Below the pieces are notes generated by a model. It saw nothing but the letters and a program-made list of their open reading frames with translations. It had not been told where the DNA came from and searched no databases. Source: Candidatus Rifleibacteriota bacterium (GTDB taxonomy: Bacteria; Riflebacteria; Ozemobacteria; Ozemobacterales; Ozemobacteraceae). Taken from it: a DNA stretch of 64,000 bases. Made by a program: the position numbers and the translations under genes. Positions 3,802 to 24,705 of this stretch are shown in pieces. The number at the start of each line of letters is the position of its first letter. Position 1 is the stretch's first letter. The DNA lies in NCBI GenBank assembly GCA_029564115.1, contig JAKQQP010000096.1, forward strand, positions 1-64,000. The letters run 5' to 3'.

Positions 3802-6800
3802 TCAATTGTGGTAAAAATAGGCATAAGAACTCCCGTCGTTTCCGAGAACCCTGTAGGTAGTGCTATACCCATACCCGGCATTCCATATTCCTGAATTACC
3901 AGACGGAGCATCACTGACATAAACAGCCCATCTGTAGGCTGCAGACGTCTTGCCAACCGCTATACCTGAAATTCTTGAAATACCAGGCAGCTTATAGGGC
4001 TTTGCTCTTGCTGAATTCGGGTTATTATTCATGCCAAACACGTCAATTGTAGTACTACTAGCATGATAGCCCCACGCAAATACTTCTCCCTTTGAATTCA
4101 CGGCAAAGCTCGTACCTTGTCCAACTGCGCCACTTTGCCCGGCAAAAATTTTCTTAATATCGACGAGCAAACCATCCGGGTCATTTACTTTTACGGGGAT
4201 CTGGCTGGTATTTCCGCCGCCGTCATTACCGCTGAAATACACATCACCGTTCTCCAACAGAAACAATGAATGAGTTGAACCTGCAGCTATGGCTTTGACG
4301 CCACTCAATCCAGGTATTTTGGCAGGACTGTTTCTCATTGCAGTATCACCCTGCCCGAGTTGCCCCTGGGCATTGTATCCCCACGAATAAACATCGCCAT
4401 TATGGTCCAGGGCCAGGCTGAAACTGTTTCGGTATTCATAGCCACCAGCGGCAACCGCCTTGATATTTGTTAAATTTTGCGACTGCACCGGGGTATTTCT
4501 TTGACTAGCAGTTCCATCCCCGAGCTGCCCCTGAGCATTGTGCCCGAACGCCCAGACAGTGCCATCCTGTTTCAGGGCCAGAACATGACAAAGTGCGGCC
4601 GAAATTGCAACGACCTGGCCGTCCAATCCTGTGGGGGTAAATCCAGGAGTGCTTACATAAGTATTTCCGCCATTATTGCCAAATTCACCATATCTTTGTT
4701 GCCCAATACAACGAATGGTTTTATCTCTACCGAGAGCCAAAACCCCTTCCTGAGTACAGGCAACATCTATATTATCCTGCCACGAGGGAGAAGTGATTGC
4801 TGTTGGAACCGAAAGATTGCTGACGTTGCTATCGCCAATATATCCATAAGTTCCGCCGCCATAACCCCATGTCCATATTCTGCCCTGAGTATCCAGGACA
4901 GCTGTGTGATAAATACCCGCGTCGGCTTTTACAAAACTTTGAATCACATCAGGTTTTCTAGTGTTATCAAGAGTGAACGGACTTTCTGGAAAGTAAGTAT
5001 AGTCGCTTTCAAGATCGCCATCAGTACATTTGATACGCAGCTGTGTGTTGGCACTCGAAAAAACATAATCACGATACGATTCCCAGATGATTTCATTGTC
5101 ACCGGCTGCCAGGCCAGAAAGAGACCTGTCGGCCGTTATCACCTGCCATGAGGTGCCGTTGAGAGTGTATTCAATTCTTACTGTAAAACTACTGTTTGAA
5201 TCATCGTCTGCGATGTTGAAATTAACTTTCATATTCCCGTTATAATATGTTGGCCCCCTCGGGTTTTCAGTATTCAGAGTCACATTGGCCAAAACAGGTG
5301 TATTCTGATTGTTAACCAAAAATTCTGCAGACTCAACCGAAGATCCAACCAAAGCGCCATCAGATGGTGAAACTCTTATTTTCACAATATTAAACCCAAC
5401 CAGTTCTGCCGGATCCCATATAAATGCCTTGCTTCCAGGGGTTAAACCGGTGCTGGAATTTATTGCATTCCAGGAAATTCCGTCATCTGCTGTATAGGCC
5501 AGATCAACCGTACAACCTGTTTCACTTGACGGATAAGTCAAGTCATATGCTATATCGTAAAAAGTATCTTCTCTCCTGTTTACAACAAGATTCGTAACTG
5601 AAGGCGGCCGGTTATCGATCGTCATCGCACCTGAAACGGCCGCGTTTCCATCGGTTTTACCATCGTTGGGCAATAATCTTACAATAACGCTCTCCATACC
5701 TGTCACGTCCGGATAATTTCTCCAGGTAATTCTTCGGCTCACACCTGGAATAATGCCCGTCAAATCACCAACGAGCTGAGTCGGTGCAGACCAGGTTGTG
5801 CCGTTGTTGGTCGAGTATTCAACGGTGATATCGCAGGTGTCGTTGTTGGCGTCGGCGAGGTCGAAGGTGAAGGTGGCGACTTTGCCGGCCTGGGTGACTG
5901 AGATATTGCTGATGATCGGCAGTTCGTTGACGTTGTTGACGGTGAACACCACAGAGTCGCCGGGGGTGCCGTTACCGATACCGTCGTGCGGGGTCAGGCG
6001 CAGGCGAACGTTGGTCGAAAAGGAGACAGCGGTTGAATCCCAGACAAAATTGATGCCGGTGCCAGGCGAAACCGAAGAAATGCTGCCCGATATATCTGCC
6101 ACATCTATCGGAGTAAAGATGCCACCGTTGACCGAACGGGCAACCGTGATGTTGCAGGCGTCGTTATCCTGGTCGACGAGAGTGTAACTGACAGAAATAT
6201 CGCCCTTACTGCCCGAAACGAGCACGTTGTTGATTACCGGCAAACGATTGTTGTTAACCGCAAACGCCGCAGAAACCCCACTGGTCCCTATTTCAAAGGG
6301 GTCTGAGGGCGTTACGCGCAGTTTAACTTCAGCATGATTGTTCGAGAAATTCTGGCGGGAATCCCAGCTGAGGGTGCGGCCACTGCCCGGCGCAACGCCG
6401 ACCAGAGTGCCGGTAACGCCGGTGGCTGAAGCCCAGGTGTTGCCGTTATCGGTAGAATAGTCGACAGAGAGGTCACAGGTATGGCCGTTGGCATCGGCCA
6501 GAGAGAAGCTTAGACTGATTATTCCAGAATTGCCGCTGGTAACCAGATTGCTGACAACCGGAACCACATTGTTACTGAGAGTGAAAACATCGCTGATACC
6601 GGCATCGCTGTTACCAAAACCGTCGTTGGCAACAACGCGAACTCTTACGGTTTCAGATTTTCCGGCGAAATCGTCGCCAGAGTTCCAGGTCACGGTGCGC
6701 CCGGCCGCCGGCGACAGGTTGCTGACAACCCCGGTCAGACTGGTCGTTCTGGTATATGAAATACCGTTGTTCGTCGAATAATAAACCTCGATCGAGCAAG

Positions 6801-9800
6801 CGTTAGCCTCGTCATCTTCAAGATCATAGGTAATGGTGATCGGGCCTGCCGAGCCACCGACAACCAGATTGGCAACCCTGGGCATGGTGTTGTTGGCAAG
6901 AGCGAAAGTGCCGGAAATACCGGCGGTGCCAAGAGCCTTGCCGTCATGTGGCTCGACTTTGACTCTGATATTGCCCGAGTTACTCAAAAAGTCATTCCGA
7001 GAATTCCAGACGATGGTTTTATTGCCGGGCACAACGCTCGTGTCACCGGTGAGAGAAGTCGTCTTCGTATAAGTTGCACCACCATCGGTTGAATAATAAA
7101 CCGTAATGCTGCAGGTATCAGTTTCGGCGTCGGCAAGCGTATAGCCGATAGTGACGTCAGAACCAGAAACCGAAGCAGTCACGGCGCTGACCGCCGGCAG
7201 ACTGTTGTTGGTAACGGCAAAAGCCGAAGACTCGCCAGGCGTGCCGGTACCGGTGCCATCATGCGGCAGAACCTTGACTTTAACCTGGGTCGCCGCCCCG
7301 GGAATATCCGGCAGAGAGTTCCAGGTCACGACTTTACCGGTGCCGGGTGCGATATTGCTGGTTGCGCCCGACAGGTTGGCACTCTGAATCTGCGTATAAT
7401 TACTGCCATTGTCGATCGAATAGAACACCGCAATCGAACAGTTATTTAGGTTGGCATCGTCGATGTCGTAAGTAATACTGATATTACCAGCTGAACCGGC
7501 CGCCACAACATTGCTGACCACAGGCAGATTGTTGTTGGTAACCGCAAAGCCGGCCGATTCAACCGCAACGCCGGCGCCATAGCCGTCATTGGGGGTAATT
7601 CTAATCTTCACGGCGGCAACGTTGCCGGTAATATTTGCGGCTGAGTTCCAGATGACGCTCTTGTTGGTGCCCGGCACGATGCCGGCCGTCGAACCGCTCA
7701 GATTCGCCGGGTCGATATCGGTGTAATTCAAACCATTGTTGATCGAATAGGCCACGGCAACTGAAGACAGATCGCCGTTGACGTCTTCGATATCGTAAGT
7801 GATAGTTATATCGCCTGTACTGCCCGAAGTTCGCAGATTGCTGATAGCCGACGGCCGGTTATTGAGAACGCTGAAAACAGACGAATCGCCCGGGGCACTG
7901 TTTACGGTGCCATCGTTGGCAACCAGGCGCACAACCACCGTGCTGTTGTCAGCGTTGATGTCAGCACTCGAGTTCCAGGTCAGAACCTTGTCGGTACCGG
8001 GCAGAACGTTCGCAGTCTGGCCGGTGATGTTAGTCGAGAGAGTAAAAGTCGAACCGTTGTCTTTTGAGTAATAAAACAGCACCGAGCAGGGGTTCGAGTT
8101 GCCGTCAGCAAGGTCGTAGGTTACGACAATATTGCCGCTCGACCCTGAAGGCGTGACCGTGCTAACCACCGGCGCCTGATTGTTGAGAACCGTGAACGAG
8201 GAAGAATTGGCCGCTGTTCCCTGACCATAGGGGTCGCTCGGCACCACGCGAATTCTTACGCCTGTCTGGTTGCGATTGATCAACGACTGCGAGTGCCAGA
8301 CGAAGGTTTGGCCATTGCCCGGCACGATGTCGGCAAGAGTTCCGGTGATGTCGTCGGTAGACATGTAAGTCACCCCGCCGTCGATCGAATAAAATACCTG
8401 AATCGAGCACAGATGACTATTGGCATCGGCGAGGTTGTAGGTAACAGTGATGTCGCCGCTGTTACCGGTCGTCGTTACCGAGCTGACGACAGGCAGCTTG
8501 TTGTTGTTAACCGTAAACGAAACTGTTTCGCCGGCGCTGCCCTGCCCAAAAGGATCTGTGGGCACAAGCCTGATTCTGACGCCACTCTGATTCGCGGCGA
8601 CATCGGCGCTCGAGTTCCAGGTCAGAGAACGGCTGGTGCCCGGCGTTACTCCGGTCAGGCTACCGCTGATATTGGTTGTGGGGTTGAATGTCAGCCCGCC
8701 ATCTATCGAAAAGAGCACGGCAATATTACATGGGTCGGCATTGCTGTCTATCAGAGTGTATGAAATGGGAATCGGGCCGTTGTCGCCCGTTACTGCCACC
8801 TCATTGATAATTGGCAGCGTGTTGTTGGTGATGTTGAAGGCCGCAGTCGTCATCCCGGTTCCTTCGGCACGGTTATCCTGGGGAACAAGCCTGACAAGCA
8901 CACCAGTGGCGTTGGTATTGACATCGGCAACCGAGTTCCAGACAAGAGTTCGGCCAGACCCTGGCAAAACGCCACTGGTGGCGCCGCTGGTATTCGAAGA
9001 CTGCAGATAGGTGTCACCGCTGTCGAGAGAATAATAAAGTTTTACCGAACAGGCGTCGTTGTTGGCATCAGCAAGCGTGTAGGTAAAGTTGATGTTACCA
9101 GCAGTGCCGCTGCGAGCCAAAGCGGTAATCGACGGGGCAACGTTGGTATCGTTGTTCAGAGCGAAAGGCGCCGAAACCCCGGCAGTGCCGTTGCCCGTGC
9201 CATCGTTCGGCACCAGGCGCACGCGCACGTCAGGCACATTGGCCGTGACGTTGTTGGTTGATTCCCAGACGATCACGTTGCCTGAACCCGGCAGAACGTT
9301 GGTCATATCGCCGCTGGCAAAAGATGATTGCGTGTAACTGACACCGCCATTCAACGAATAATGGAAGCTGACGGCGCAGGTGTTGTTTTCGGCGTCGGCA
9401 AGATCGAAAGTCACCGTGATTGCCCCGGTATTGCCGGAAGTAACGACGTTGCTGATCGAAGGCCGGCTGTTATTGGCGACGGCAAAGGGCTTGCTCATGC
9501 CGGCAGTACCGTTGCCGACACCATCGTTGGGTATCAGCCTGAACCATACCTGGTCATAAGTGCTGGAAAAGTCGTCGGCAGAACGCCAGACAAAAGTTTT
9601 GCCCGCGCCCGGGGTCAGGTTCGAAGTATTGCCGGTAATACTGAAAGTCGGAAACCAGTTGATACTGTTGATCGAATACTCGGCAATAACGTCACATGAA
9701 TCGCTGTCAGCATCAGAAAGAGTGTATTCTACCGTTATATCGCCGCTGTTGCCGCTGGTGGTAACACCTGAAACAACCGGCAGGCGGTTGTTACGCAACG

Positions 9801-12800
9801 GGAACATGGGTGATTCAGCCGGAATACCGGAACCATCAGGATCACTCGGGATAATACGAATCTTCGTGTTCGGGTAATAACCAAGAACGTCTGCCGGGGA
9901 ATCCCAGGTGATGACCTTACCTGCGCCCGGAATAATCTCCTGCTGCAGGCCATTGATCAGGTTGATGGTTTTAATGTAGTTCTGACCGCCGTCGATCGAA
10001 TAATAAAAGTCGATCGAACACAGGTCATTGTTGGGGTCGAAAAGGTCGTAGCTGAAGGTGATCTGGCCGGTAGAGCCAGAATTCATGATACGCAGAATGC
10101 TGGGCATGCCATCGTTCGACAGAGAAAAGGCCGCAGAAGTGCCCGGCGTGCCGACGCCGGTACCGTCATCGACCATGATGCGCACTTTCACTTCAGGGTA
10201 ACCGCCGGCAACATCGACGGCTGAGTTCCAGATGATCTCGCGTTGATCACCGGGGGTGAACCCGTTGATCTGGCCGGTAAGCGAATGGGTGCGGGTGAAG
10301 TTCACGCCGTTGTCGAGAGAGTAGTACACCTGCAACGAACCGATATCATTGTTCGGGTCGCTGTAATTATATTTGATGACAATGTTACCACGACCGCCGG
10401 TAGTAGTAACGTTGCTGACCACAGGCCGGCCAATATTATCGACCATCAGAATCGGTGATTCACCGCCGGTGCCTGGGCCACCACGATCAGTGGGCACGAC
10501 TTTAACCCTGACATTGCCGATGCTGCCGTTGATGTCCGGCGGTGAGTTCCAGCTGATGGTTCGAACGCCAGGGGCGATATCGGTAGTCTGACCGGTAATG
10601 TTAGTTGTATGAGCATAGTTGACGCCGCCGTTGGTTGAATAATAAACGGCGATGCTGCACAGATCAGAATTCGGGTCGGCAAGAGTGTAAGTGACGGTAA
10701 TGGCACCGGTAGTGCCGGTAGTGGTGACATTGCTGATAACCGGCGGCTGGTTCGAATTAGAAACGGCAAAAACTGCCGTTTCGGCAGGTGAACTGTTAGT
10801 GCTGCCATCGTTAGCGATTATTCTGAGTTTAACAGAAGCCTGATCACCGGGAACATCGAGAACCGAGCGCCAGACAAGACTGCGGTTGCCCGGAGCCACG
10901 CCGGTAACCGTGCCGGTCACGTTGCTGGTGTTGGTATAGCTGGCGCCACCGTTGATCGAGTATGCCAGAGAAATGCCGCATGAATCGTTTTCGTTGTCGG
11001 CCAGAGTGTATGAGACGGTGATGTCGCCGAAACTGCCGCTGGTCACAAGATTCGAAACAACCGGAGCACTGTTGTTATTAACCGCAAAAGTTGCCGAATC
11101 GCCGGCCGTGCCTGTGCCGCTGCCATCGGCAGGTTCGACGCGCACCCTGACCTGCTGGGCATTGCCCGAAACATCGAGAGCCGAGTTCCAGGTGACGGTT
11201 TTGCCGGTGCCCGGCGGGATATTGTTGAGTGTGCCGCTGAGATTGCTGGTCTGAGTGTAGGTAACACCGTTATCGATGCTGTAGTAAACATTGATCGAGC
11301 AGTTATCGCCGTTGGCATCGACCAGACTGTAAGTAATCTGGATACTGCCGGAGGTTCCGGTGGTAGTGACGTTGCTGACCACCGGCAGATTGTTGTTGTT
11401 GACCGCAAAAATCGAAGACTGGCCTTCGGTGCCGTTGACAGTGCCGTCATTCGGCATAATTTTGACTCTGACGTTGTTCTGAGTTCCGGGAATATCGGTC
11501 GCCGAACGCCAGACAATGGTGCGGCTGGCGCCGGGCAGAATTCCGGTAGTGTTGCCGGTCAGGTTACCGGTCTGAAAATAATTGGTGCCACCGTCTATCG
11601 AATAATAGACGACGATAGAACAGGCATCATTATTGGCATCGGCCAGGGTGTAGGTAATGGTTATGTCACCAACTGAACCTGAGGGCGTCACGTTGGTAAC
11701 GATCGGTGCCTGATTGTTATTGATGGCAAAAGCGGCAGAAATGCCGGCCGTGCCACTGCCAACCGTATCTGCAGGCTGAACTCTGACTCTGACATCAGGC
11801 TGGCTGCCATTGATGTCGGTGGCTGAGTTCCAGCTCAGGGTTCGCCCAGTGCCGGGGGCCAGACCACTGGTAGTACCACTGACATTGCCGGCAGGCACGA
11901 AAGTCGAGCCACCATCTATCGAATAAGCCAGGGCAACCCGGCAGTTATCGTTATTGGCATCGGCCAGATCGAAGGTAATGGCGATATTACCAGAATTACC
12001 CGAGGTAACGACATTGGAAACCACAGGCAGCTGGTTGTTATTAACCGCGAAAGTTGCCGATTCAGCACCAGTACCGGTGCCAACCTTGTCGGTCGGCACC
12101 AGGCGTATTTTTACCGTAGATGAGTTGCGATTGACATCCTGAACAGATTTCCAGACGAGAGTCTTGCTGGTGCCAGGCAGAACGTTGGTGGCTGAACCGG
12201 TGTAATTAGTCGTCTGCGTATAGGTCGAACCATCGTTGGTCGAAAAGAAGACACCAATGTTGCACGGGTCATTATTACCATCGGTCAATGTATAGGTAAT
12301 GGTAATATCGCCACTGCTGCCGGAAACGGCAACAGCAGATACGATCGGCAACTGGTTGTTGCTGACCGAGAAAGCTGCCGACTCTGCAGGGGTGCCGTTA
12401 CCAATGCTGTCACTGGCCGCAATTTTGATTTTTACGCTGGAAGCATTGGTGTTGACGTCTGCTACTGAGTTCCAGGTCAGAGTTTTGCCGGTACCCGGCA
12501 GAACGTTGCTTGTCTGACCACTTATGTTGGTAGTCTGAGTATAGTTGACGCCGTTATCGATCGAATAAAAAACGGTGATATTGCACGGGTCGTTATTCGG
12601 ATCGGCAAGAGTGTAGGTAATGGCTATGTTGCCGGAGGTTCCGGAGGTTGCAACATTGGAAACACTCGGCAGATTATTGTTGGTGACTGCAAATACCGGC
12701 GAAATGCCAGCAGTGCCATCGCCAACACCGTCATTCGGCACAATGCGAATTCTGACATTGTTCTGGTTGCCATTGATGTCGGCGGCAGAATTCCAGGTGA

Positions 12801-15800
12801 TGGTGCGGTTACCCGGTGCTATCTCAGTTGTTTGACCAGTGATATTGGAGGTAGCGGTATAGTTCGTACCGCCATCGGTCGAATAAAAAACGCCGATAGA
12901 ACAGGGGTGGTTGTTGGCATCGGTCAATAAGAATGAGACGGTGATGTTTCCAACGGAACCGCTCGTCGTAACAGCCGAAACGACCGGCAGAGTATTGTTG
13001 CTGATTGCAAAAGCAGGAGATTCGCCAGGCGTGCCTTCGCCAGCCCCGTCGCTGGCACCAACCTTGATGCGCACAGTGCTTGAATTGCCGTTAACATCGG
13101 CGCTGGAGTTCCAGACGAGGGTCTGGCCGCTACCGGGGGTGACACCCGTTAGTGAACCGGTAAGGTTAGTCGTCGGCAGATAGTTGACGCCGTCATCGGT
13201 CGAGTAATAGACGGTAATGTTACAGGCATCGTTGTTCGGGTCGGTAAGGTTATAAGTGATGGTAATGTTACCTGAAGAACCGCTCGTAGTAACGCCAGAA
13301 ACGACGGGCAGATTGTTGTTGCTCACCGCAAACACCGGCGAAACGCCCGCCGTGCCAGAACCAACGGCATCTGAAGGGGTTATTCTGATCCTGACATTGC
13401 CCTCATTACCGTTGATATCCGCAGCTGAGTTCCAGGTCAGGCTGGCAACACCAGACAAAATACCGGAAGTTTTACCGGTAACGTTGCTGGTGCGGGTAAA
13501 ATTGACGCCGCCATCGATCGAATAAGCTACGGTAACGTTGCAGGGGTCGTTGTTGGCATCTGTCAGCTCAAAAATCAGAGTGAAGTTGCCGGTTGTGCCG
13601 CTGGCGACAACATTGCTCACGACGGGCAAAGTATTGTTGCTGATCGCAAAGGAAGCTGAATCGCCGGGGGTTCCGGCTCCTGAGCCATCATTGGCAACCA
13701 GGCGAATTTTAACGTTGCTCTGATTACCCGAAACATTGGCTCTTGAGTCCCAGGTGAGGGTTTTGCCAATGCCGGAAGTAACACCCGCCAGAGGGCCGGT
13801 AATACCTGAAGCAGGCAAAAAGGTAGTGCCATTGTCGATCGAGTAAAAGACACTGATTGTGCAGGGGTCATTATTCGGGTCTGCCAGTGAATAGGTAATG
13901 GTTATGTCACCGGATGAACCGCTGGTGGTGACAGCTGATATTGCCGGCAGATCATTGTTGCTGACTGCAAAAGCAGACGAAACTCCGGCAGTGCCTGAGC
14001 CAACGGCATCTGCAGGAGTTATGCGAACTATTACACTGCTCTGGTTACCGCTTATATCGGCTGCCGAGTTCCAGGTAATATTGCGGTTGCCGGGAATAAC
14101 AGCCGTGGTCGACCCGGTGACATTGGCAGTAGCGGTAAAAGTCGAGCCACCATTGGTTGAATAAGCCATTTCGATATTGCAGGGTTCGTTGTTGGTATCG
14201 ACGAGTTGAAAATTGATCGTGATGTTGCCACTGTTACCGCTGGTTATAACATTATTGACAACGGGCAGAGTATTATTGCTGATGGCAAAAACAGATGATT
14301 CGCCAGGTGTTCCGGCGCCAGAACCGTCATTGGCAACGATTCTCACTCTGACCGCACTCTGATTGCCGGGAATATCGGTGGCGGAGTTCCAGGTCAGGGT
14401 TTTGCCGCTGCCCGGTGCCACTGAAGTTAAAACACCCGTTACATTTGTCGTTGCAGAGTAGGTCGTGCCCCCATCGACTGAATAAAAAACGGCGATCGAG
14501 CACAAATCGTTATTTGGGTCGGTCAAGGCATAGGTGAGGGTTATGTTGCCAGAAAAACCAGCCGCGCTGACAGCTGATACAACCGGAAGATCATTGTTGC
14601 TGACCGCAAAAATCTGCGACATTGCGGCCGTGCCAGAACCGCCAGCATCGGCCGGTGTAATGCGAAGCATCACACTGCTCTGGTTCCCGCTTATGTCGGC
14701 GGCTGAGTTCCAGGTGATGTTGCGGTTACCAGGAAGAACAGCCGTGGTAGAGCCAGTAAGACTGATTGTGGGAGTGAAAGTTGAGCCGCCATTTGTCGAA
14801 TAGGCCACTTCGATATTGCAGGGGTCGTTGTTGGCATCGGCGAGCAGGAAATTGATGGTAATGTTGCCACTGTTGCCGCTGGTTGTAATATTGCTTACAA
14901 CGGGCAAAGCATTGTTGCTGACAGCAAACACAGTCGATTCGCCCGGAGTTCCGGCGCCAGAACCGTCATTGGCAACGATTCTCACCCTGACCGCACTCTG
15001 ATTGCCGGGAATATCGGCGGCAGAGTTCCAGGTCAGGGTTTTGCCGCTGCCCGGCGCCACCGAGGTCAATGTGCCCGTAACATTGGTTGTCGCCGTGTAG
15101 GTAGTGCCCCCGTCGATGGAATAAAAAACACCAATCGTGCACAAGTCACCGTTAGGGTCAGCCAATGTATAAGCAAGCGTTATGTTACCGGAGGAACCAG
15201 TAGCGCTGACAGCCGAAACGGTCGGCAGGTTGTTGTTGTTAACGGCAAAAACAGCTGAAGTTGCGGCGGTGCCATTGCCGACGGCATCTCTGGGAGTGAT
15301 GCGAACGACGACATTACTTTGATTACCGGCGATGTTCGCCGCTGAATTCCAGGTGATGCTGCGACTGCCGGGAACAACAGCCGTAGTTGAGCCGGTAAGA
15401 CTGGTTGTGGTGTTAAAAGTCGAACCACCGTCGATTGAATAGGTGACCTCGATACTACACGGCTCATTGTCGGCATCGGCAAGAGTATAATCAAGGCGAA
15501 TATCGCCAGAACTGCCGTTAACGACAAGATTGGAAATCACTGGCAGCTGGTTTTGAGTTGTCGAATTGTTGACGGTAAAAACAGCAGAACTGGCAGCAGT
15601 ACCAGTGCCACCCGCATCTGCCGGAGTTATGCGCACAACTACCTGCGACTGCAGATCAGCGATGTCTGCAGCCGAAAGCCAGGTCAGTTCTCTGTCGCTG
15701 CCCGGAAGAACCTGCGAAGTGCTGCCCAGGAGGCTGGTAGTTTCGATAAAATTTTCGCCACCATCGAGGCTGAAGTCTACCTGCAGGGAAACTTCATCCT

Positions 15801-16143
15801 GATCCTGGTCGGCCAGATTGTAAGTAAGCTGTATCTGGCCTGAATTACCAGTAGTTCTAAGGTTGGAAACCACAGGTCGCTGGTTGGCTGGCTGCACGCC
15901 TGAACCAACTTTGAGACAAACTCTTGCTACCGCTTCAAGATCACTCTTATCGGTGACTCTGATGCTGATTGTTGCCAGGCCGGCGACCGGTGGGGCAACC
16001 CAGGTTTTAAACCATTTGTGAGTGCTGGTGGCGATAACGCCGGCAGTTGCCTCCCATTCGACGCTGAGGTTTTCGCGGTTCGGGTCATCGGGGTCACTGG
16101 CTTCGGCAACCAGCTGCACCTGCTGATTTGGGTTGATGGTTGT
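3802..16143 (-). CDS. Giant Ig-like-repeat/RCC1 surface protein (C-terminal part after in-frame TAG)
   Basis: This frame is open for about 4,113 residues. The first usable start is a GTG at 16119, but it has no signal peptide and lies in the middle of a domain. The frame continues upstream without shift into the lipoprotein ORF, separated only by one TAG at 16144-16146, so both are almost certainly one gene of about 4,360 residues. After a PKD/Ig-like start come about 34 copies of a ~98-residue Ig-like repeat with the pattern LPVVSxVxTSGxSGxITxxY, LADxNNDPC and WNSAADxxGN. Most repeats hold a single Cys after an Asp/Asn-rich turn. The last ~380 residues hold RCC1-type propeller repeats (WGYNAQGQLGQGD, WAFGHNAQGQLGDGT). 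RCC1 propellers at the end of a repeat stalk suggest a surface adhesin or binding head; this is inference. Stop TGA. Confidence 0.8.
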   Translation of the reverse strand, partial: TTINPNQQVQLVAEASDPDDPNRENLSVEWEATAGVIATSTHKWFKTWVAPPVAGLATISIRVTDKSDLEAVARVCLKVGSGVQPANQRPVVSNLRTTGNSGQIQLTYNLADQDQDEVSLQVDFSLDGGENFIETTSLLGSTSQVLPGSDRELTWLSAADIADLQSQVVVRITPADAGGTGTAASSAVFTVNNSTTQNQLPVISNLVVNGSSGDIRLDYTLADADNEPCSIEVTYSIDGGSTFNTTTSLTGSTTAVVPGSRSITWNSAANIAGNQSNVVVRITPRDAVGNGTAATSAVFAVNNNNLPTVSAVSATGSSGNITLAYTLADPNGDLCTIGVFYSIDGGTTYTATTNVTGTLTSVAPGSGKTLTWNSAADIPGNQSAVRVRIVANDGSGAGTPGESTVFAVSNNALPVVSNITTSGNSGNITINFLLADANNDPCNIEVAYSTNGGSTFTPTISLTGSTTAVLPGNRNITWNSAADISGNQSSVMLRITPADAGGSGTAAMSQIFAVSNNDLPVVSAVSAAGFSGNITLTYALTDPNNDLCSIAVFYSVDGGTTYSATTNVTGVLTSVAPGSGKTLTWNSATDIPGNQSAVRVRIVANDGSGAGTPGESSVFAISNNTLPVVNNVITSGNSGNITINFQLVDTNNEPCNIEMAYSTNGGSTFTATANVTGSTTAVIPGNRNITWNSAADISGNQSSVIVRITPADAVGSGTAGVSSAFAVSNNDLPAISAVTTSGSSGDITITYSLADPNNDPCTISVFYSIDNGTTFLPASGITGPLAGVTSGIGKTLTWDSRANVSGNQSNVKIRLVANDGSGAGTPGDSASFAISNNTLPVVSNVVASGTTGNFTLIFELTDANNDPCNVTVAYSIDGGVNFTRTSNVTGKTSGILSGVASLTWNSAADINGNEGNVRIRITPSDAVGSGTAGVSPVFAVSNNNLPVVSGVTTSGSSGNITITYNLTDPNNDACNITVYYSTDDGVNYLPTTNLTGSLTGVTPGSGQTLVWNSSADVNGNSSTVRIKVGASDGAGEGTPGESPAFAISNNTLPVVSAVTTSGSVGNITVSFLLTDANNHPCSIGVFYSTDGGTNYTATSNITGQTTEIAPGNRTITWNSAADINGNQNNVRIRIVPNDGVGDGTAGISPVFAVTNNNLPSVSNVATSGTSGNIAITYTLADPNNDPCNITVFYSIDNGVNYTQTTNISGQTSNVLPGTGKTLTWNSVADVNTNASSVKIKIAASDSIGNGTPAESAAFSVSNNQLPIVSAVAVSGSSGDITITYTLTDGNNDPCNIGVFFSTNDGSTYTQTTNYTGSATNVLPGTSKTLVWKSVQDVNRNSSTVKIRLVPTDKVGTGTGAESATFAVNNNQLPVVSNVVTSGNSGNIAITFDLADANNDNCRVALAYSIDGGSTFVPAGNVSGTTSGLAPGTGRTLSWNSATDINGSQPDVRVRVQPADTVGSGTAGISAAFAINNNQAPIVTNVTPSGSVGDITITYTLADANNDACSIVVYYSIDGGTNYFQTGNLTGNTTGILPGASRTIVWRSATDIPGTQNNVRVKIMPNDGTVNGTEGQSSIFAVNNNNLPVVSNVTTTGTSGSIQITYSLVDANGDNCSINVYYSIDNGVTYTQTSNLSGTLNNIPPGTGKTVTWNSALDVSGNAQQVRVRVEPADGSGTGTAGDSATFAVNNNSAPVVSNLVTSGSFGDITVSYTLADNENDSCGISLAYSINGGASYTNTSNVTGTVTGVAPGNRSLVWRSVLDVPGDQASVKLRIIANDGSTNSSPAETAVFAVSNSNQPPVISNVTTTGTTGAITVTYTLADPNSDLCSIAVYYSTNGGVNYAHTTNITGQTTDIAPGVRTISWNSPPDINGSIGNVRVKVVPTDRGGPGTGGESPILMVDNIGRPVVSNVTTTGGRGNIVIKYNYSDPNNDIGSLQVYYSLDNGVNFTRTHSLTGQINGFTPGDQREIIWNSAVDVAGGYPEVKVRIMVDDGTGVGTPGTSAAFSLSNDGMPSILRIMNSGSTGQITFSYDLFDPNNDLCSIDFYYSIDGGQNYIKTINLINGLQQEIIPGAGKVITWDSPADVLGYYPNTKIRIIPSDPDGSGIPAESPMFPLRNNRLPVVSGVTTSGNSGDITVEYTLSDADSDSCDVIAEYSINSINWFPTFSITGNTSNLTPGAGKTFVWRSADDFSSTYDQVWFRLIPNDGVGNGTAGMSKPFAVANNSRPSISNVVTSGNTGAITVTFDLADAENNTCAVSFHYSLNGGVSYTQSSFASGDMTNVLPGSGNVIVWESTNNVTANVPDVRVRLVPNDGTGNGTAGVSAPFALNNDTNVAPSITALARSGTAGNINFTYTLADANNDACSVKLYYSLDSGDTYLQSSNTSGATSGVLPGSGRTLVWNSVADVNTNATGVLVRLVPQDNRAEGTGMTTAAFNITNNTLPIINEVAVTGDNGPIPISYTLIDSNADPCNIAVLFSIDGGLTFNPTTNISGSLTGVTPGTSRSLTWNSSADVAANQSGVRIRLVPTDPFGQGSAGETVSFTVNNNKLPVVSSVTTTGNSGDITVTYNLADANSHLCSIQVFYSIDGGVTYMSTDDITGTLADIVPGNGQTFVWHSQSLINRNQTGVRIRVVPSDPYGQGTAANSSSFTVLNNQAPVVSTVTPSGSSGNIVVTYDLADGNSNPCSVLFYYSKDNGSTFTLSTNITGQTANVLPGTDKVLTWNSSADINADNSTVVVRLVANDGTVNSAPGDSSVFSVLNNRPSAISNLRTSGSTGDITITYDIEDVNGDLSSVAVAYSINNGLNYTDIDPANLSGSTAGIVPGTNKSVIWNSAANITGNVAAVKIRITPNDGYGAGVAVESAGFAVTNNNLPVVSNVVAAGSAGNISITYDIDDANLNNCSIAVFYSIDNGSNYTQIQSANLSGATSNIAPGTGKVVTWNSLPDIPGAATQVKVKVLPHDGTGTGTPGESSAFAVTNNSLPAVSAVTASVSGSDVTIGYTLADAETDTCSITVYYSTDGGATYTKTTSLTGDTSVVPGNKTIVWNSRNDFLSNSGNIRVKVEPHDGKALGTAGISGTFALANNTMPRVANLVVGGSAGPITITYDLEDDEANACSIEVYYSTNNGISYTRTTSLTGVVSNLSPAAGRTVTWNSGDDFAGKSETVRVRVVANDGFGNSDAGISDVFTLSNNVVPVVSNLVTSGNSGIISLSFSLADANGHTCDLSVDYSTDNGNTWASATGVTGTLVGVAPGSGRTLSWDSRQNFSNNHAEVKLRVTPSDPFEIGTSGVSAAFAVNNNRLPVINNVLVSGSKGDISVSYTLVDQDNDACNITVARSVNGGIFTPIDVADISGSISSVSPGTGINFVWDSTAVSFSTNVRLRLTPHDGIGNGTPGDSVVFTVNNVNELPIISNISVTQAGKVATFTFDLADANNDTCDITVEYSTNNGTTWSAPTQLVGDLTGIIPGVSRRITWRNYPDVTGMESVIVRLLPNDGKTDGNAAVSGAMTIDNRPPSVTNLVVNRREDTFYDIAYDLTYPSSETGCTVDLAYTADDGISWNAINSSTGLTPGSKAFIWDPAELVGFNIVKIRVSPSDGALVGSSVESAEFLVNNQNTPVLANVTLNTENPRGPTYYNGNMKVNFNIADDDSNSSFTVRIEYTLNGTSWQVITADRSLSGLAAGDNEIIWESYRDYVFSSANTQLRIKCTDGDLESDYTYFPESPFTLDNTRKPDVIQSFVKADAGIYHTAVLDTQGRIWTWGYGGGTYGYIGDSNVSNLSVPTAITSPSWQDNIDVACTQEGVLALGRDKTIRCIGQQRYGEFGNNGGNTYVSTPGFTPTGLDGQVVAISAALCHVLALKQDGTVWAFGHNAQGQLGDGTASQRNTPVQSQNLTNIKAVAAGGYEYRNSFSLALDHNGDVYSWGYNAQGQLGQGDTAMRNSPAKIPGLSGVKAIAAGSTHSLFLLENGDVYFSGNDGGGNTSQIPVKVNDPDGLLVDIKKIFAGQSGAVGQGTSFAVNSKGEVFAWGYHASSTTIDVFGMNNNPNSARAKPYKLPGISRISGIAVGKTSAAYRWAVYVSDAPSGNSGIWNAGYGYSTTYRVLGNDGSSYAYFYHN
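4945..15875 (-). repeat. About 34 tandem ~295-bp Ig-like coding repeats
   Basis: I counted 34 units from the protein sequence, each about 98 residues and starting at the motif (L/A/R)PVVSNV. Consecutive units near the N-terminal end alternate in type: units 3, 5, 7 and 9 share NDGSGAGTPGES or a close variant and GSGKTLTWNS, while units 4, 6 and 8 share a different middle, so a two-unit block appears to have been duplicated. Units become more divergent toward the RCC1 end (33 and 34 lack the NNDxC turn). Such arrays recombine and are prone to assembly collapse. Confidence 0.85.
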
Positions 16144-20397: not shown

Positions 20398-20604
20398 ATG
20401 GGTGGGCTGAGAGATCGTGAAAGACCGAAAAAACGGGTCAGCGGCTGGGTTGACCGGGTCACCGGCGGCATTGTCGTTGTAGTGGTGAGGCACCCGACTG
20501 AACCGGATGCCACCATTGAGGTTTATGTGCCGATTGAAAAGTTCAAAAACCGCATACCTCAAGAAGGTGAAAAGGTTTCGGTACTCATCGACGACAAAAA
20601 CTGA
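20398..20604 (+). CDS. Small DUF3006-like protein
   Basis: The 68-residue product resembles the DUF3006 pattern: a start of the type 'xxGWVDRVxGGxVVVxV' then acid/hydrophobic beta strands and a final 'VPxEKFKNxxxEGEKVSVLID'. These small beta proteins have no established function. GAGGAG lies 8-13 bases before the ATG, which follows the LysM-barrel gene by 18 bases, so the two are co-transcribed. The call is by general pattern and could be wrong. Confidence 0.6.
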   Translation: MGGLRDRERPKKRVSGWVDRVTGGIVVVVVRHPTEPDATIEVYVPIEKFKNRIPQEGEKVSVLIDDKN

Positions 20605-20624
20605 ATCAGCAAAACAATTCGTAA

Positions 20625-21720
20625 TAGAAACAGCCCCCGTTTAACCGGGGGCTGTCTGTTGAACTTACAGATTAGAATCGGTTTTCCTTCTTGAAGACTT
20701 TTCAATGTGCGGTTAATCAGAACCGTCACCAGTGCTGATTACCCCTTCTTGCCGTTACATATCCTTTAGAGTTTTAACGTGGCTGCACTATGACGCGCAT
20801 TGGTTACGTCAAGCCTCAGGCGTTCGTCGCCCTCGAGGCCTTCATTACAACCACCAGACTGGACGTTAATCTAGTCTTTCTATCCTCTTTTGAACTTCTG
20901 CCGACTGCAAGGTTCGACACACATTCTCATTGGTTGGATAACACCAACGCCTCCTGAGGTTTCTTCCCTCTTAGCGCCGTCACTGCGGGACGTGACAAGC
21001 AGGATTCCAGCCCTGCCGCATTCCGCTCTCAGGTTTTCTCAACCTCTCAGCAGAACTTGCGTCCTTAACAGCTTGCGGGTTTGTTCCACCCCGCTGGCAC
21101 TCCCAGGGTTATGATCTTCAGAGCTTTACCCATGACCGGTCGACAACTGTTTCCAGCTGCCCTGCTTCTACGCTGTTACCGTCTCTACATGGTTTTCTTC
21201 CAGAAATTGCTGGCAGTTCCCACTGCCTGGCCGCCGGACTTACGTCTCACCCGACCCTGGCTCTTTCTGGCCCTGTGCTGCAAGCAGCCAGTTTCCATCT
21301 TGAGATTCGGTCATACCTTGAAGCTTTGCTCCCGGTGCTGAGCGTCTCCTACGCCGTCAGATTTCACTCCTTCGTCGCGATGACAACTCTCATGACCTTT
21401 TGTCCTTCGGGGTATCAGGCTTCACCGCCCTGGATGTTATCCTTCCTCTTACAGGGTTTGTGACCCTCATAGAGTTTTTCTGCGGTTGAAGTTGGATTCT
21501 CCGTCGATGCGGAGCCCTCCCCCCATGGAGTTTGTGCCTTTTGACACCTGCTTCTTCTTCGGTTACGCGCAACCCGAGATTATTGATTCTCTTCAGGGTC
21601 GTTTTGCCTGTCACCAGACATCTGCACCCATCTTTGGATTGCTGCCCGGAACCTGCCGGAGCTCAGAAGCAACTGCCTTGCGGCTACCGATTCTATTTTC
21701 AAAGATCTGTTCGTTCAACT
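20625..21720 (-). ncRNA. Candidate large structured noncoding RNA, ~1.1 kb, family not recognised
   Basis: No credible coding frame exists here, but the minus strand reads as a highly folded RNA. Its two ends pair: 21713-21719 with 20658-20664 (7 bp), 21705-21710 with 20667-20672 (6 bp), and 21686-21695 with 20673-20682 (10 bp), giving a 23-bp closing helix right between promoter and terminator. Inside I find at least 15 local hairpins, for example 21675-21684 (GCAA loop), 21606-21619 (GUGA loop), 21499-21514, 21453-21467, 21338-21360, 21212-21227 (GGGA loop), 21031-21045, 20979-20996, 20930-20947, 20813-20839, 20791-20811 and 20711-20743. The tetraloops are GNRA only when read on the minus strand, and loops are purine-rich in that sense. 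It does not show tmRNA, RNase P, rRNA or group II domain V signatures. A large ornate RNA of the GOLLD/ROOL/OLE kind is the closest concept. Confidence 0.75.
20630..20655. terminator. Strong hairpin terminator between DUF3006-like gene and the ncRNA unit
   Basis: ACAGCCCCCG pairs perfectly with CGGGGGCTGT around TTTAAC. On the minus strand it is followed by TTCTATT and sits two bases after the 3' strand of the RNA closing helix, so it fits as terminator of the ~1.1 kb minus-strand RNA. It also lies 26 bases after the stop of the plus-strand gene. Confidence 0.8.
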
Positions 21721-21725
21721 AACCC

Positions 21726-21754
21726 AATATATATTGTTTGTTTTTGTTTGTCAA
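21726..21754 (-). promoter_or_regulatory. Consensus sigma70 promoter of the ncRNA, with A-tract UP element
   Basis: On the minus strand TTGACA (21749-21754) and TATATT (21726-21731) are separated by exactly 17 bases. Upstream is an A-rich tract (AAAAAATAAATAAAAAA) like the UP elements of rRNA promoters. Transcription would start near 21719, precisely at the first paired base of the RNA closing helix. This is the best promoter match I found in the window. Confidence 0.8.
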
Positions 21755-21843
21755 CGTTTTTTATTTATTTTTTCCAGACAAAGCAAAACGCTTCTGATAA
21801 TGCCTCTTTCGGCGATCTGATTATTATGGGCGGGGGCTACGGC

Positions 21844-24705
21844 TCAGAAGGTAATGACCATTTTTGCGTTGAGAATCGTTGCGTCGTAGCCCTGACCAAC
21901 CAGGCTCTTCGAAGAGTGAACCCGTTTGAGTTCGCCATCGATGATGGTATCGGTGCCAATGAACTGTGAAAAATTCAGGCCCCCTTCGTAATGATCGCTG
22001 CTTATTCGAGCGCTGATATCCTTGTGACTGGCAAAAAATCGATAGCGCTGACTGCGCGAGGCCGGCGTCAAAACTACCGCCAGGCGTTTTTCCCATTCGC
22101 GGCTGGGCTCGAGGGCGCTGATGTCATTATGTTGCAGTGCCAGTTCGAGACTTGCCCAGTGACTGAACTGACGCTGCAGGCCGAGAATTCTGCTTTTGGT
22201 GAAGGTATCGTTGGCATCGACGAAAACATCGTCTTCGAGCCTTTCTTCATAAGTGGCATCGAGAATGTAGCCGGCGGTAAACTCGTGGCGCAGCTGCAAC
22301 GATTTGAGACTGTCGCGCAATTCGCTTTGTGGTTCGTGATTGCGGTTGAACCCCTCTTCATACTCAGTGGTCAGCATCATCTTTTCGAAAGGCGTATAAC
22401 GAAGTTCCCAGGTGCGCCGGTCGTTGCTCGACACCTTGATGTCGGTCTTCTGATCCTGCAGATCGCGACGACGCCAGTCGAAATAAGCCTGCAGATAACG
22501 ATTCACACGATAGTCGGTGATAAAATTGGCGGTGGTTTTCTGAACCGGGTTTTCGAAACGATTGAGAATTTCGGCCTCTTCAAGGGCCGAATTGGGCAGA
22601 CTCGGCGGCAGAATGTATTTGGCCGGATCGAGATCTGGGTCACGCAAAATTTTAGAGGTATTCTCGATTTTGTATTTGAGTTGGGTGCGCAAGTCGCGAT
22701 TTGGTTCGTAGCGGAACTGCGAATCGGCGATTTCTGTGTCAGCACGCGAGTTGGCGAGAAAGTCTTCTTCGCGACGCCACTGGAAAAGGCCACGAGCGTT
22801 GAAAACCCGGTTTGGTTCGTAACTGAGATCGAGATTGTAGTTACGCGTTTCAGAGCGCAGACCGGAAGCCACGAGATCATCTTCGACGGCGATTCGTGAA
22901 ATGCCGGTGTTCCATGAAAATGTTTCGTCGGCAACAGCCCCCATGGTGAAGTTCATTTCGAGAACTTCAGAATCTGAAGCCAGATTTATGGCATCATCGT
23001 AACCGGTTTTGTTGATTTTGGCCTGGGCATTCAGTTTGCCGACCTTGCGGTCGAAAACGACAGCCGCCGTATCGCGGCTCAGGTCAGAGGTCACTGCCGG
23101 GCCGTTTTCACGGTCGGTCTGACGGCCGCCACGCACTTCAAGCCGCGTTGCCGGGCTGGTTGCCCAGACAAAGCCGCTGTTGTAATTGCGATAATCGATT
23201 GCTGATACCGTCGTATCATCGTCAAGATTGGTTTCTGACTGCTCACCATCGATAAAAGCGCTGACTGCATCGGTGAATTTATAACCAAGTCGCAGCCGAC
23301 CGCTCATGATATCGTTTACCAGGCCGCGCTCGCCCAGTTCCAGAACACCGCCTTCACGGCCAACCACTTTGAAATCTTTGTCGATGCGACGCCATACCAG
23401 TTCAGCGTCGGTGCGGCCAGTTTTGCCGACAAGCCCGAAACGACTGGCATTACCGACAAAGGCTTTATCGGCAGCGGCAGCGTCGGAATTTCGATTCGGG
23501 TCGACCCGCGAAACCGCCGCTTCGGCCTTTAACGAAAACGAAGGGGACAACAGCCAGTCAGCATCGGCAGAAACAACGTCATGCTGCATGGGAGTAACGG
23601 TTGACGAAGCGGTCGAACCAGATTTCGGAGTGGTGCTGTCGATCTCGCGCAGCCAGGTCAGGCCGACACTGCGGCCTTCGCTATGGGTATAAATCTGTCG
23701 GCTGCCAAAAAGATTACGGCTGAAGGCCATGCTTTCATCGGCCACCTCATATTCGATAACGATCCAGCGTGTGACTTCGATGGGTAGAATATGCGGCAGA
23801 AGCTTGATCAGACCATCTTCGTAATCGACGAGGTAATCGCTGCCGCGGACCAGTTGCCGCCCGTCAATGCTGACTTTTTCTGAATTCTGCACGATAGGGC
23901 TTGCCTGCATTCTGAATTCTTGCTGCTGGCCGGCACCTCTGAACTGCTCGCGACGGGCCATACCCTTCGACTGCGAAAACAGAAATATCGACTTGAAACG
24001 CTCATGAAAAGAGCCCTGAGCCATTATGCCGCGCACTTCCTTGCGAAACATCGAGAATTCAGTGCCCTCGAGGGCGAGAGGAAAATCACCCATGACGAAT
24101 TTCCAGACCGGGCCATCGATGTTAACGGTAAAACGACGATCTTCGTCTTCTTTATCGTCGAGAACGGCATGCACTTTGGAATTTTCGGTAATATTGCCGT
24201 CAATCTCGAGATGCAGGCTCTGGTCGAGCTTGAACCCGGGTATCGAATCGAAATTTTCGGTGGCAAAATGGCTGATATCGCCAGAAATTTCAGACTGCTT
24301 CATTTCGAACGTCTTCGTACCCGAAATATTGATGTTGCGCTTTTCGATCTGGTGATCGGCTTCATCCCAGAAGTTTTTTGCATACTGCAGAACCTGGGCC
24401 GGCGGCGTTTTGATCGGCTGCGGTTCGTTGAACGTAAGCGACTTCAGGCCGGCCGTCTCGATCGCGACGCAATCGGGCGTAATCTCTTCTGTATCAGCTT
24501 CCATGGCTACAGAGTCGGCCGTAAGACTAACTGTCTTTGCTTCAGTCGTCTTCAACAGAACAGGAGCCATCGGGGCCGGCCGCTCGACAACGCCGGCATC
24601 AGCAAAAGCAGAAGCGGGAAACAGGCTGTTGAAAAACATGCACAGCAGCAGCAGGCGCATGGTGATAATGCGCCATCGCGAAGAATCTGCCGGCCTGAAT
24701 TTCAT
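21844..24705 (-). CDS. Large exported probable outer-membrane beta-barrel protein
   Basis: The 953-residue protein has a signal peptide (RLLLLCMFFNSLFPASAFA at residues ~17-35; the n-region is long, and Met16 is an alternative start). Around residues 270-330 there is a motif VSIDGRQLVRGSDYLVDYE with DGLIKLLPHILPIEV and IVIEYEVAD, a beta-sandwich module seen in many large bacterial envelope proteins. The remaining ~600 residues are repeated amphipathic strands of the 'RLGYKFTDAVSAFIDGE' and 'LRYTPFEKMMLTTEYEEG' kind that end in VITF, typical of an outer-membrane barrel. Its ATG overlaps the stop of the xerC/D-like gene by four bases (ATGA), so it is translated from that transcript. Function unknown. 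Confidence 0.72.
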   Translation of the reverse strand: MKFRPADSSRWRIITMRLLLLCMFFNSLFPASAFADAGVVERPAPMAPVLLKTTEAKTVSLTADSVAMEADTEEITPDCVAIETAGLKSLTFNEPQPIKTPPAQVLQYAKNFWDEADHQIEKRNINISGTKTFEMKQSEISGDISHFATENFDSIPGFKLDQSLHLEIDGNITENSKVHAVLDDKEDEDRRFTVNIDGPVWKFVMGDFPLALEGTEFSMFRKEVRGIMAQGSFHERFKSIFLFSQSKGMARREQFRGAGQQQEFRMQASPIVQNSEKVSIDGRQLVRGSDYLVDYEDGLIKLLPHILPIEVTRWIVIEYEVADESMAFSRNLFGSRQIYTHSEGRSVGLTWLREIDSTTPKSGSTASSTVTPMQHDVVSADADWLLSPSFSLKAEAAVSRVDPNRNSDAAAADKAFVGNASRFGLVGKTGRTDAELVWRRIDKDFKVVGREGGVLELGERGLVNDIMSGRLRLGYKFTDAVSAFIDGEQSETNLDDDTTVSAIDYRNYNSGFVWATSPATRLEVRGGRQTDRENGPAVTSDLSRDTAAVVFDRKVGKLNAQAKINKTGYDDAINLASDSEVLEMNFTMGAVADETFSWNTGISRIAVEDDLVASGLRSETRNYNLDLSYEPNRVFNARGLFQWRREEDFLANSRADTEIADSQFRYEPNRDLRTQLKYKIENTSKILRDPDLDPAKYILPPSLPNSALEEAEILNRFENPVQKTTANFITDYRVNRYLQAYFDWRRRDLQDQKTDIKVSSNDRRTWELRYTPFEKMMLTTEYEEGFNRNHEPQSELRDSLKSLQLRHEFTAGYILDATYEERLEDDVFVDANDTFTKSRILGLQRQFSHWASLELALQHNDISALEPSREWEKRLAVVLTPASRSQRYRFFASHKDISARISSDHYEGGLNFSQFIGTDTIIDGELKRVHSSKSLVGQGYDATILNAKMVITF

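Follow-up and report, generated by a model that had tools for sequence, protein, structure and literature searches.

Introduction

To our knowledge, few classes of bacterial RNA have the size and intricacy of the one described here. Among the large ornate RNAs, OLE RNA is chromosomal. PMC12054373 gives OLE RNA as approximately 600 nt long and found mostly in Bacillota. Passages of PMC12286853 describe GOLLD as often exceeding 800 nt and one studied ROOL RNA as having 659 nt, place both in phage or prophage genomes, in many cases close to tRNA islands, and report that OLE, ROOL and GOLLD form RNA-only complexes, OLE being a dimer in vitro; the functions of these three large RNAs are said there to remain poorly understood. 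For the rRNA of Escherichia coli, parts of PMC10250234 report that boxA recruits antitermination factors and that a leader-trailer helix joining the 16S flanks is essential for the formation of active 30S subunits.

The window, i.e., the whole 64,000-nt stretch of DNA analysed here, contains on its minus strand a candidate RNA that resembles GOLLD and ROOL in being a large, free-standing, structured noncoding RNA of obscure function (PMC12286853, in part). Unlike them, it is chromosomal, has no tRNA gene in the window and found no match among phage and plasmid records or, with two patterns, in viral contigs, and no mention of its boxA-like element or hints of modules was found in PMC12286853, where the term boxA occurs 0 times. 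It is ornate and conserved over many species like OLE RNA; however, it differs from OLE in length and host phylum (PMC12054373), has no Rfam match and has no constant partner gene. With pre-16S rRNA it shares a boxA-type element near the 5' end and a flank-joining helix in a long untranslated RNA (PMC10250234, in part), but the enclosed RNA is not rRNA, matching neither SSU nor LSU, and its boxA-like element bulges from within the closing helix instead of lying upstream. The RNA resembles OLE, ROOL and GOLLD in kind, but by the tests made it falls in none of these families. We propose, with a probability of approximately 0.7, that the locus encodes a free-standing 1.1-kb RNA that is likely transcribed in the style of rRNA and likely has a stable architectural role.

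Locus and transcription signals

The RNA of the window sits between genes and has its own promoter and terminator, as follows.

20630–21719, minus strand: candidate structured noncoding RNA, approximately 1.09 kb including the terminator hairpin (from fold z-score, held-out covariation and relatives in the phylum)
21726–21754, minus strand: sigma-70-type promoter TTGACA-17-TATATT, with 11 of 12 consensus positions
20630–20655, minus strand: terminator hairpin with a 6-nt loop, read from the sequence, starting two bases past the closing helix

A preliminary description of this DNA had reported a promoter with an A-rich UP element and a predicted start at 21719, the first base of a helix. These points were borne out: the promoter agrees with the consensus at 11 of 12 positions, A or T occupies 18 of the 22 positions in the tract directly 5' of it, and 21719 is the first paired base, 7 nt past the -10 box. 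TTGAC(A/T) occurs at the corresponding place in all 25 aligned copies that have a 5' end; for G005 and G004 the promoter was identified by eye, and the -10 box of G004 is poor. As the description had suggested from the strong promoter, the RNA may be abundant. The same description had placed a terminator two bases past the helix. The hairpin is located there, but its tail is TTTCT, and for this reason it went uncalled in a consensus scan of the window, which returned 0 terminators. Several other copies have longer T-runs at the terminator.

Closing helix and fold

The two ends of the RNA pair in three helices, and three GNRA tetraloops are conserved (rows are those of the 25-row alignment described below).

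21719–21713, minus strand: 5' strand of the outer closing helix, GTTGAAC, pairing with GTTCAAC at 20664–20658
20664–20658, minus strand: 3' strand of the outer closing helix, GTTCAAC (consensus structure; end-pairing comparison over 30 copies)
21709–21705 with 20672–20668, minus strand: middle closing helix, CAGAT with ATCTG (structure from nine close sequences)
21695–21686, minus strand: 5' strand of the inner closing helix, TAGAATCGGT (top-ranked in the energy-free helix search)
20682–20673, minus strand: 3' strand of the inner closing helix, ACCGATTCTA, pairing with TAGAATCGGT
21611–21614, minus strand: conserved GNRA tetraloop, GNRA in 25 of 25 rows
20726–20729, minus strand: conserved GNRA tetraloop, GNRA in 23 of 25 rows
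21150–21153, minus strand: conserved GNRA tetraloop, GNRA in 20 of 25 rows

The closing helix had been counted as 7+6+10 bp; the helix is real, although our count is 7+5+10 bp. No base separates the middle and inner helices on the 3' side, which makes CTTTGAAAA (21704–21696) a bulge. The inner helix ranked first in the energy-free search, with 43 compensatory cells and 10 further pair types. When the ends of 30 copies were paired with one another, own 5' and 3' ends gave a mean of -34.8 kcal/mol versus -18.1 kcal/mol for crossed ends. Own-end pairing ranked 1–7 of 30 in 29 copies, as the ends of close relatives also pair well with one another; in G025b, whose row stops short of the 3' end, it ranked last.

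The consensus from nine sequences, drawn on the window, has 22 hairpin loops, in keeping with the more than fifteen local hairpins first noticed. The three GNRA tetraloops noticed with them are all present, and a fourth GNRA string, from 21040 (22 of 25 rows), sits in a larger loop. The RNA strand had a minimum free energy (MFE) of -416.2 kcal/mol, whereas 51 dinucleotide-shuffled versions averaged -342.8 (SD 7.5; z about -9.8); the opposite strand had -352.4, versus an average of -310.3 (SD 9.6) for 39 shuffles (z -4.4).

Covariation

In our alignment A1, the copy of the window is joined by 24 others, which come from 22 genomes and have 54–92% identity to the window; a G023 copy cut by a contig end, a cut third G025 copy and the distant copies of G037, G038 and G039 are absent from it, and its G024 row starts upstream of the RNA. 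RNAalifold on the 25 rows gave 220 pairs, 157 of them with two-sided changes. These are the very rows from which the structure was derived, and we therefore made a held-out test: the nine sequences closest to the window supplied a 323-pair structure, which was evaluated on the remaining 16. In the held-out rows, 3953 of 4954 cells paired (79.8%), and 1027 two-sided compensatory cells were spread over 221 of the 323 pairs. Ten slid controls gave 34.3–42.5% pairing cells and 73–131 compensatory cells, and 200 controls with re-dealt partners gave a mean of 39.5% (maximum, 43.5%) and 116 compensatory cells (maximum, 174). The single-sequence MFE structure of the window reached 72.1% in the same test.

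An energy-free helix search of 24 rows found 15 helices with at least 15 compensatory cells, versus 0 in five column-permuted controls, and 14 of the 15 fall within the predicted structure. Beyond the consensus, one helix with 17 compensatory cells lies near a consensus helix; the others are weak. A tree-aware G-test of all column pairs in the 25 rows gave only 1 pair at E <= 0.05, which we attribute to low power with 25 related rows. The covariation looked for in homologues is thus present in the held-out and energy-free tests, with just that one pair in the strict all-pairs test. The extensive, covariation-backed secondary structure that marks large ornate noncoding RNAs was found here, although the all-pairs test was weak.

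Noncoding status and known families

Both strands contain a total of twelve open stretches of at least 50 codons, the antisense ones reaching 155 codons. The six stretches of at least 79 codons are open in 0–12 of 24 relatives and the six shorter ones in 5–19 of 24, with three of the twelve in 16–19. Substitutions counted against eight close relatives are distributed among all three codon positions, and short stretches show some skew (e.g., 62/57/93 and 76/82/45). The open-stretch and codon-position comparisons revealed no conserved protein frame, as the preliminary description had held, and a protein gene was ruled out since frames are not kept and substitutions are spread over codon positions.

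An Rfam search returned 0 matches at gathering thresholds in the window and in nine closer relative loci, which ruled out a known Rfam RNA; at E values up to 10, positions 20500–21900 gave six matches, the lowest E being 0.14, and two of the best of these sub-threshold matches are terminator-like leaders. The GOLLD, ROOL and OLE models did not match at E up to 10 in 20500–21900 or up to 0.5 in seven distant loci. Models of rRNA (SSU or LSU), tmRNA, RNase P RNA and introns of group I or II matched neither in the window at gathering thresholds nor among the six matches at E up to 10 in 20500–21900, in agreement with the tmRNA and RNase P signatures having been judged missing at first sight, and no tRNA or tmRNA gene was found in the window. 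A significant Rfam family, missing covariation and a conserved protein had been set beforehand as results that speak against a new structured RNA; none of the three was obtained. Because base pairs are compensated and no Rfam family matches, we predict a giant folded RNA, and that it forms a structured RNA class is close to certain.

Blast searches of 50,697 phage records and of plasmid records gave no match, and viral contigs searched with two patterns carried neither (0 contigs); phage or plasmid DNA was set aside on these results. At title level, we found no description of a noncoding RNA from Riflebacteria in the open-licence PMC literature.

Distribution within the phylum

A core domain of the RNA was the basis of two covariance models, R1 (24 rows) and R2 (31 rows including one from outside the phylum, G217).

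20966–21110, minus strand: core domain, a junction with its surrounding hairpins and outer helices

Twenty-three of the 39 phylum genomes had a DNA match at E <= 0.001. R1 added G037, G038 and G039, bringing the number to 26 of 39 at E <= 1, and R2 recovered the same 26. Neither model matched in the other 13 (G007–G010, G026 and G029–G036), which may reflect true absence, incomplete bins or stronger divergence; with these gaps, the distribution does not mark the RNA as essential. The G012 match to the core model is weak (E 0.078) because this copy is without most of that domain. The copies of G037, G038 and G039 have their own TTGACA promoter, paired ends and a terminator hairpin with a T-run. 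In G039 and G038, GCTTTGAACAT pairs with ATGTTCAAAGC; in G037, GCTTTGAACAA pairs with TTGTTCAAAGC, a compensated difference (pairing was computed for G039 and G037).

Most genomes have one RNA copy. Two copies were seen in G018 and in G382 (the latter outside the phylum), and two plus a cut third in G025.

L045, L047, L059, L061, L089, L109 and L110: multi-copy loci (G018, G382, G025)

Relatives in other phyla

Under strict filters, the R1 search of 381 relatives of G001 (39 within the phylum and 342 outside it) matched a single genome beyond the phylum, G217. Its E of 0.0058 would by itself be compatible with chance; in a finer search it scored 36.5 bits. The G217 stretch has 1064 nt and an MFE of -420.4, its ends form 20 unbroken pairs, more with interruptions, and its open stretches are antisense only (up to 110 codons).

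R2 was searched on 385 relatives of G217 and matched nine genomes at E <= 0.05, two of which are G001 and G217 themselves. The outside matches include G390 (1.6e-17), G227 (1.1e-10), G211 (4.5e-7) and two copies in G382 (1.4e-6 and 2.2e-5). Weak matches in G235 and G291, both inside open frames, were judged chance, and one in G049 spans 29 nt only. The good outside matches fall in four phyla other than that of the window, with the RNA in 2 of 5 genomes (G217 and G382), 1 of 8 (G390), 1 of 2 (G227) and 2 of 80 (G211 and G428).

The full plan of approximately 1.0–1.1 kb with paired ends is visible in two of these four phyla. Both G382 copies and G211 have paired ends with T-runs directly after them, and they fold 79, 86 and 52 kcal/mol below the mean of at most eight shuffles. 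The elements of G211 and G428 share 77% identity along their full length; their match begins exactly at the closing helix, with 63 nt upstream and 13 nt downstream supplied, and their closing helices differ by compensated changes, the T-run of G428 being short. In G390 and G227, the core domain alone is secure: the core scores are good, and the ends could not be placed with confidence. A5 aligns 14 core-domain rows and is biased towards the model to which it was fitted; in it, 92.4% of 515 cells pair and two-sided changes occur in 33 of 38 pairs, versus 34.9–46.1% of cells and 11–14 pairs in slid controls.

Possible repeated modules and internal loops

Two further stretches of the window matched R2, the best antisense score there being 5.3 bits.

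21182–21307, minus strand: candidate core-module repeat scoring 22.8 bits with R2, weak in relatives
21402–21532, minus strand: candidate core-module repeat scoring 20.9 bits with R2

Extra core matches with R2 were also found in L042 (22.4 and 15.8 bits) and directly upstream of the core in G227 (33.2 and 18.7 bits; best antisense, 6.5). With R1, a second stretch occurs at the place corresponding to 21402–21532 in 18 of 18 other loci, in 13 of them just a hairpin of approximately 30 nt, and antisense core sequence reaches as much as 14.6 bits. The R2 training rows include one second-module match, and the repeat-bearing copies are homologous and therefore not independent. Read from these sequences, the matches suggest that the RNA may have grown by repeating a junction module. 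In L107 (G227), positions 943–1386 contain three consecutive core-like modules of approximately 140–150 nt each, as if in a tandem array.

Internal loops of 3x3 nt, mostly purines, recur: the nine-sequence consensus drawn on the window has eight, and AAG/GAA is the commonest form at three of them. MFE folds contain 10 such loops in G217, 10 in G039 and 4 in the window, versus means of 1.4 (maximum, 5) for the window and 0.95 (maximum, 3) for G217 in 20 shuffles each, and one phylum 16S has 1. Palindromic loops, considered as a sign of self-assembly, gave no signal, which counts against the architectural explanation: kissing-loop covariation was seen in 2 tetranucleotide windows versus a mean of 2.1 in permuted columns, a result that leaves other contacts possible.

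A boxA-like element near the 5' end

The bulge in the closing helix coincides with a conserved element.

21696–21707, minus strand: boxA-like element GATCTTTGAAAA, the last 9 nt of which bulge from the closing helix; TCTTTGA-type, 25 of 25 rows

The nine bulged nucleotides in the window are the CTTTGAAAA part of this element. Its forms are TCTTTGA (14 rows), TCATTGA (4), TATTTGA, TCCTTTGA and TCTTTAA (2 each) and TCTTTTA (1). The distance from the row start is constant save in G024, whose row begins further upstream, and the element lies 17–26 nt past the -10 box in 22 of the 23 rows with a sensibly placed promoter (33 nt in G012). The distant copies of G037–G039 have a diverged element, in which AGTTTGACAAG replaces TTCTTTGACAAG, and this counts against the rRNA-style explanation preferred here. 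No boxA-like element was seen at the 5' ends of the copies outside the phylum.

Seven of the 39 phylum genomes contain 16S sequence, five of them a full gene. A TC(T/C)TTTGA-type element occurs at four of the five full 16S loci and a TATTTGA form at the fifth. The 16S leader of G005 has GATCCTTTGACAT, and that of G025 has TATTTGA forms only; GATCTTTGACAA in G020 and GGTCTTTGAAAA in G009 and G010 are located after the 16S gene. Judged by its likeness to these sequences and to the general boxA consensus, the element is probably a boxA, and boxA elements before CRISPR arrays offer a parallel case. Such an element would make sense here because an untranslated RNA of 1.1 kb would be open to Rho.

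Proposed role and alternative explanations

We propose that NusB and S10 would bind the boxA-like element on the nascent RNA and that RNA polymerase would thereby pass more than 1 kb of untranslated RNA without being stopped by Rho. Pairing of the two ends, comparable to the leader-trailer helix in pre-16S rRNA, would then secure a fold of several domains that may be held by the GNRA loops and the purine-rich 3x3 loops. The finished RNA would be long-lived and might serve as a scaffold or particle, as RNA alone, in the manner of OLE, ROOL and GOLLD, or with proteins. Action as an architectural particle is the least certain of these steps, and we give it slightly less than an even chance. More tentative still is the wider idea of an ancient new class of kilobase RNA in at least five phyla, built of repeated junction modules and purine 3x3 loops and made by the rRNA pathway, i.e., a second rRNA-like particle RNA. 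A chromosomal, conserved, multi-phylum class with apparent rRNA-type signals would make the function of giant RNAs testable away from phages, and the 25-sequence alignment and the two models can be used for structure modelling, searches of all genomes and the choice of constructs for cryo-EM.

The preliminary description had offered either a divergent GOLLD, ROOL or OLE member or a new class. The new class is the better half of that choice. A very divergent member that the Rfam models fail to recognise would share the large, ornate, noncoding character and the many hairpins and GNRA loops, yet none of the three models matched in the region, at the seven distant loci or at the nine closer ones, and GOLLD and ROOL are further disfavoured by the lack of a tRNA gene in the window and of a match in phage records; we regard membership as very unlikely. 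Sequestration of a protein or of RNA polymerase by a large regulatory RNA with no particle of its own is unlikely, but a repeated module would suit repeated binding of one partner, and sequestering of RpsU is discussed for OLE in part of PMC12286853. Against such an RNA are the missing constant partner gene and a fold that covers the whole length instead of separate sites. Size, conserved core and GNRA loops would likewise suit catalysis; however, a ribozyme or intron-like RNA in place of an architectural one is rather improbable for an intergenic RNA that has a promoter and a terminator of its own, matches none of the group I, group II and RNase P models and adjoins no reverse transcriptase or maturase named among neighbours that were clustered and annotated in part.

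If the locus were a mobile, MITE-like inverted-repeat element, its closing helix would be terminal inverted repeats and the rest a passenger. The ends are indeed inverted repeats, the chromosomal place varies between lineages, and G018, G382 and G025 have more than one copy; but most genomes have a single copy, the internal helices covary throughout, the promoter is kept in 25 of 25 rows, and the family of a 953-aa protein lies upstream in 9 of 26 loci from two clades, which leaves this reading hardly credible. A decayed or spurious protein gene with structure by chance could point to the antisense stretches of up to 155 codons and to the three of twelve stretches that are open in 16–19 of 24 relatives, yet the long stretches are open in just 0–12 of 24 and substitutions are spread over codon positions. 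For practical purposes, the fold strength, the covariation and the frame comparison refute a decayed gene, and its chance is negligible.

Genomic neighbourhood

We compared the neighbours of the RNA at 26 loci, some of which are cut by contig ends, and no constant partner protein gene was found across them, which counts against the proposal of an architectural RNA. The family of the 953-aa protein was located upstream of the RNA within two frames at 9 of the 26 loci, in two phylum clades; the integrase-like protein of 297 aa in the window has family members beside the RNA at 5 of 26. Since some loci share these neighbours, the RNA gene seems to have been inherited largely in place, with local rearrangement. 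Relatives of the 953-aa protein occur at six loci, four from Candidatus Riflebacteria/Rifleibacterium, one from Ozemobacter and one titled Methylomirabilis, a genome that is grouped in the same phylum as the other five; each of the six genomes has the RNA once, with 78–85% identity over almost the full length.

The 953-aa protein itself (21844–24705, minus strand) belongs to no Pfam family and adjoins the integrase-like (XerC/D-type) gene. The Methylomirabilis-titled locus, L004 (G004), is probably from a mislabelled bin, as its protein, its RNA and its phylum grouping fit Riflebacteria. A 68-aa frame (20398–20604, plus strand), convergent with the RNA, has no Pfam family, and in G027 and G002 the RNA is followed by small frames that clustered together and are alike by eye. 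Elsewhere in the window, an open frame of 4105 codons (3802–16119, minus strand) contains many similar repeats of approximately 80–100 residues, seemingly RCC1-type near its end when read by eye, and the frames between 55640 and 63381 are presumably dnaA, gyrB and gyrA.
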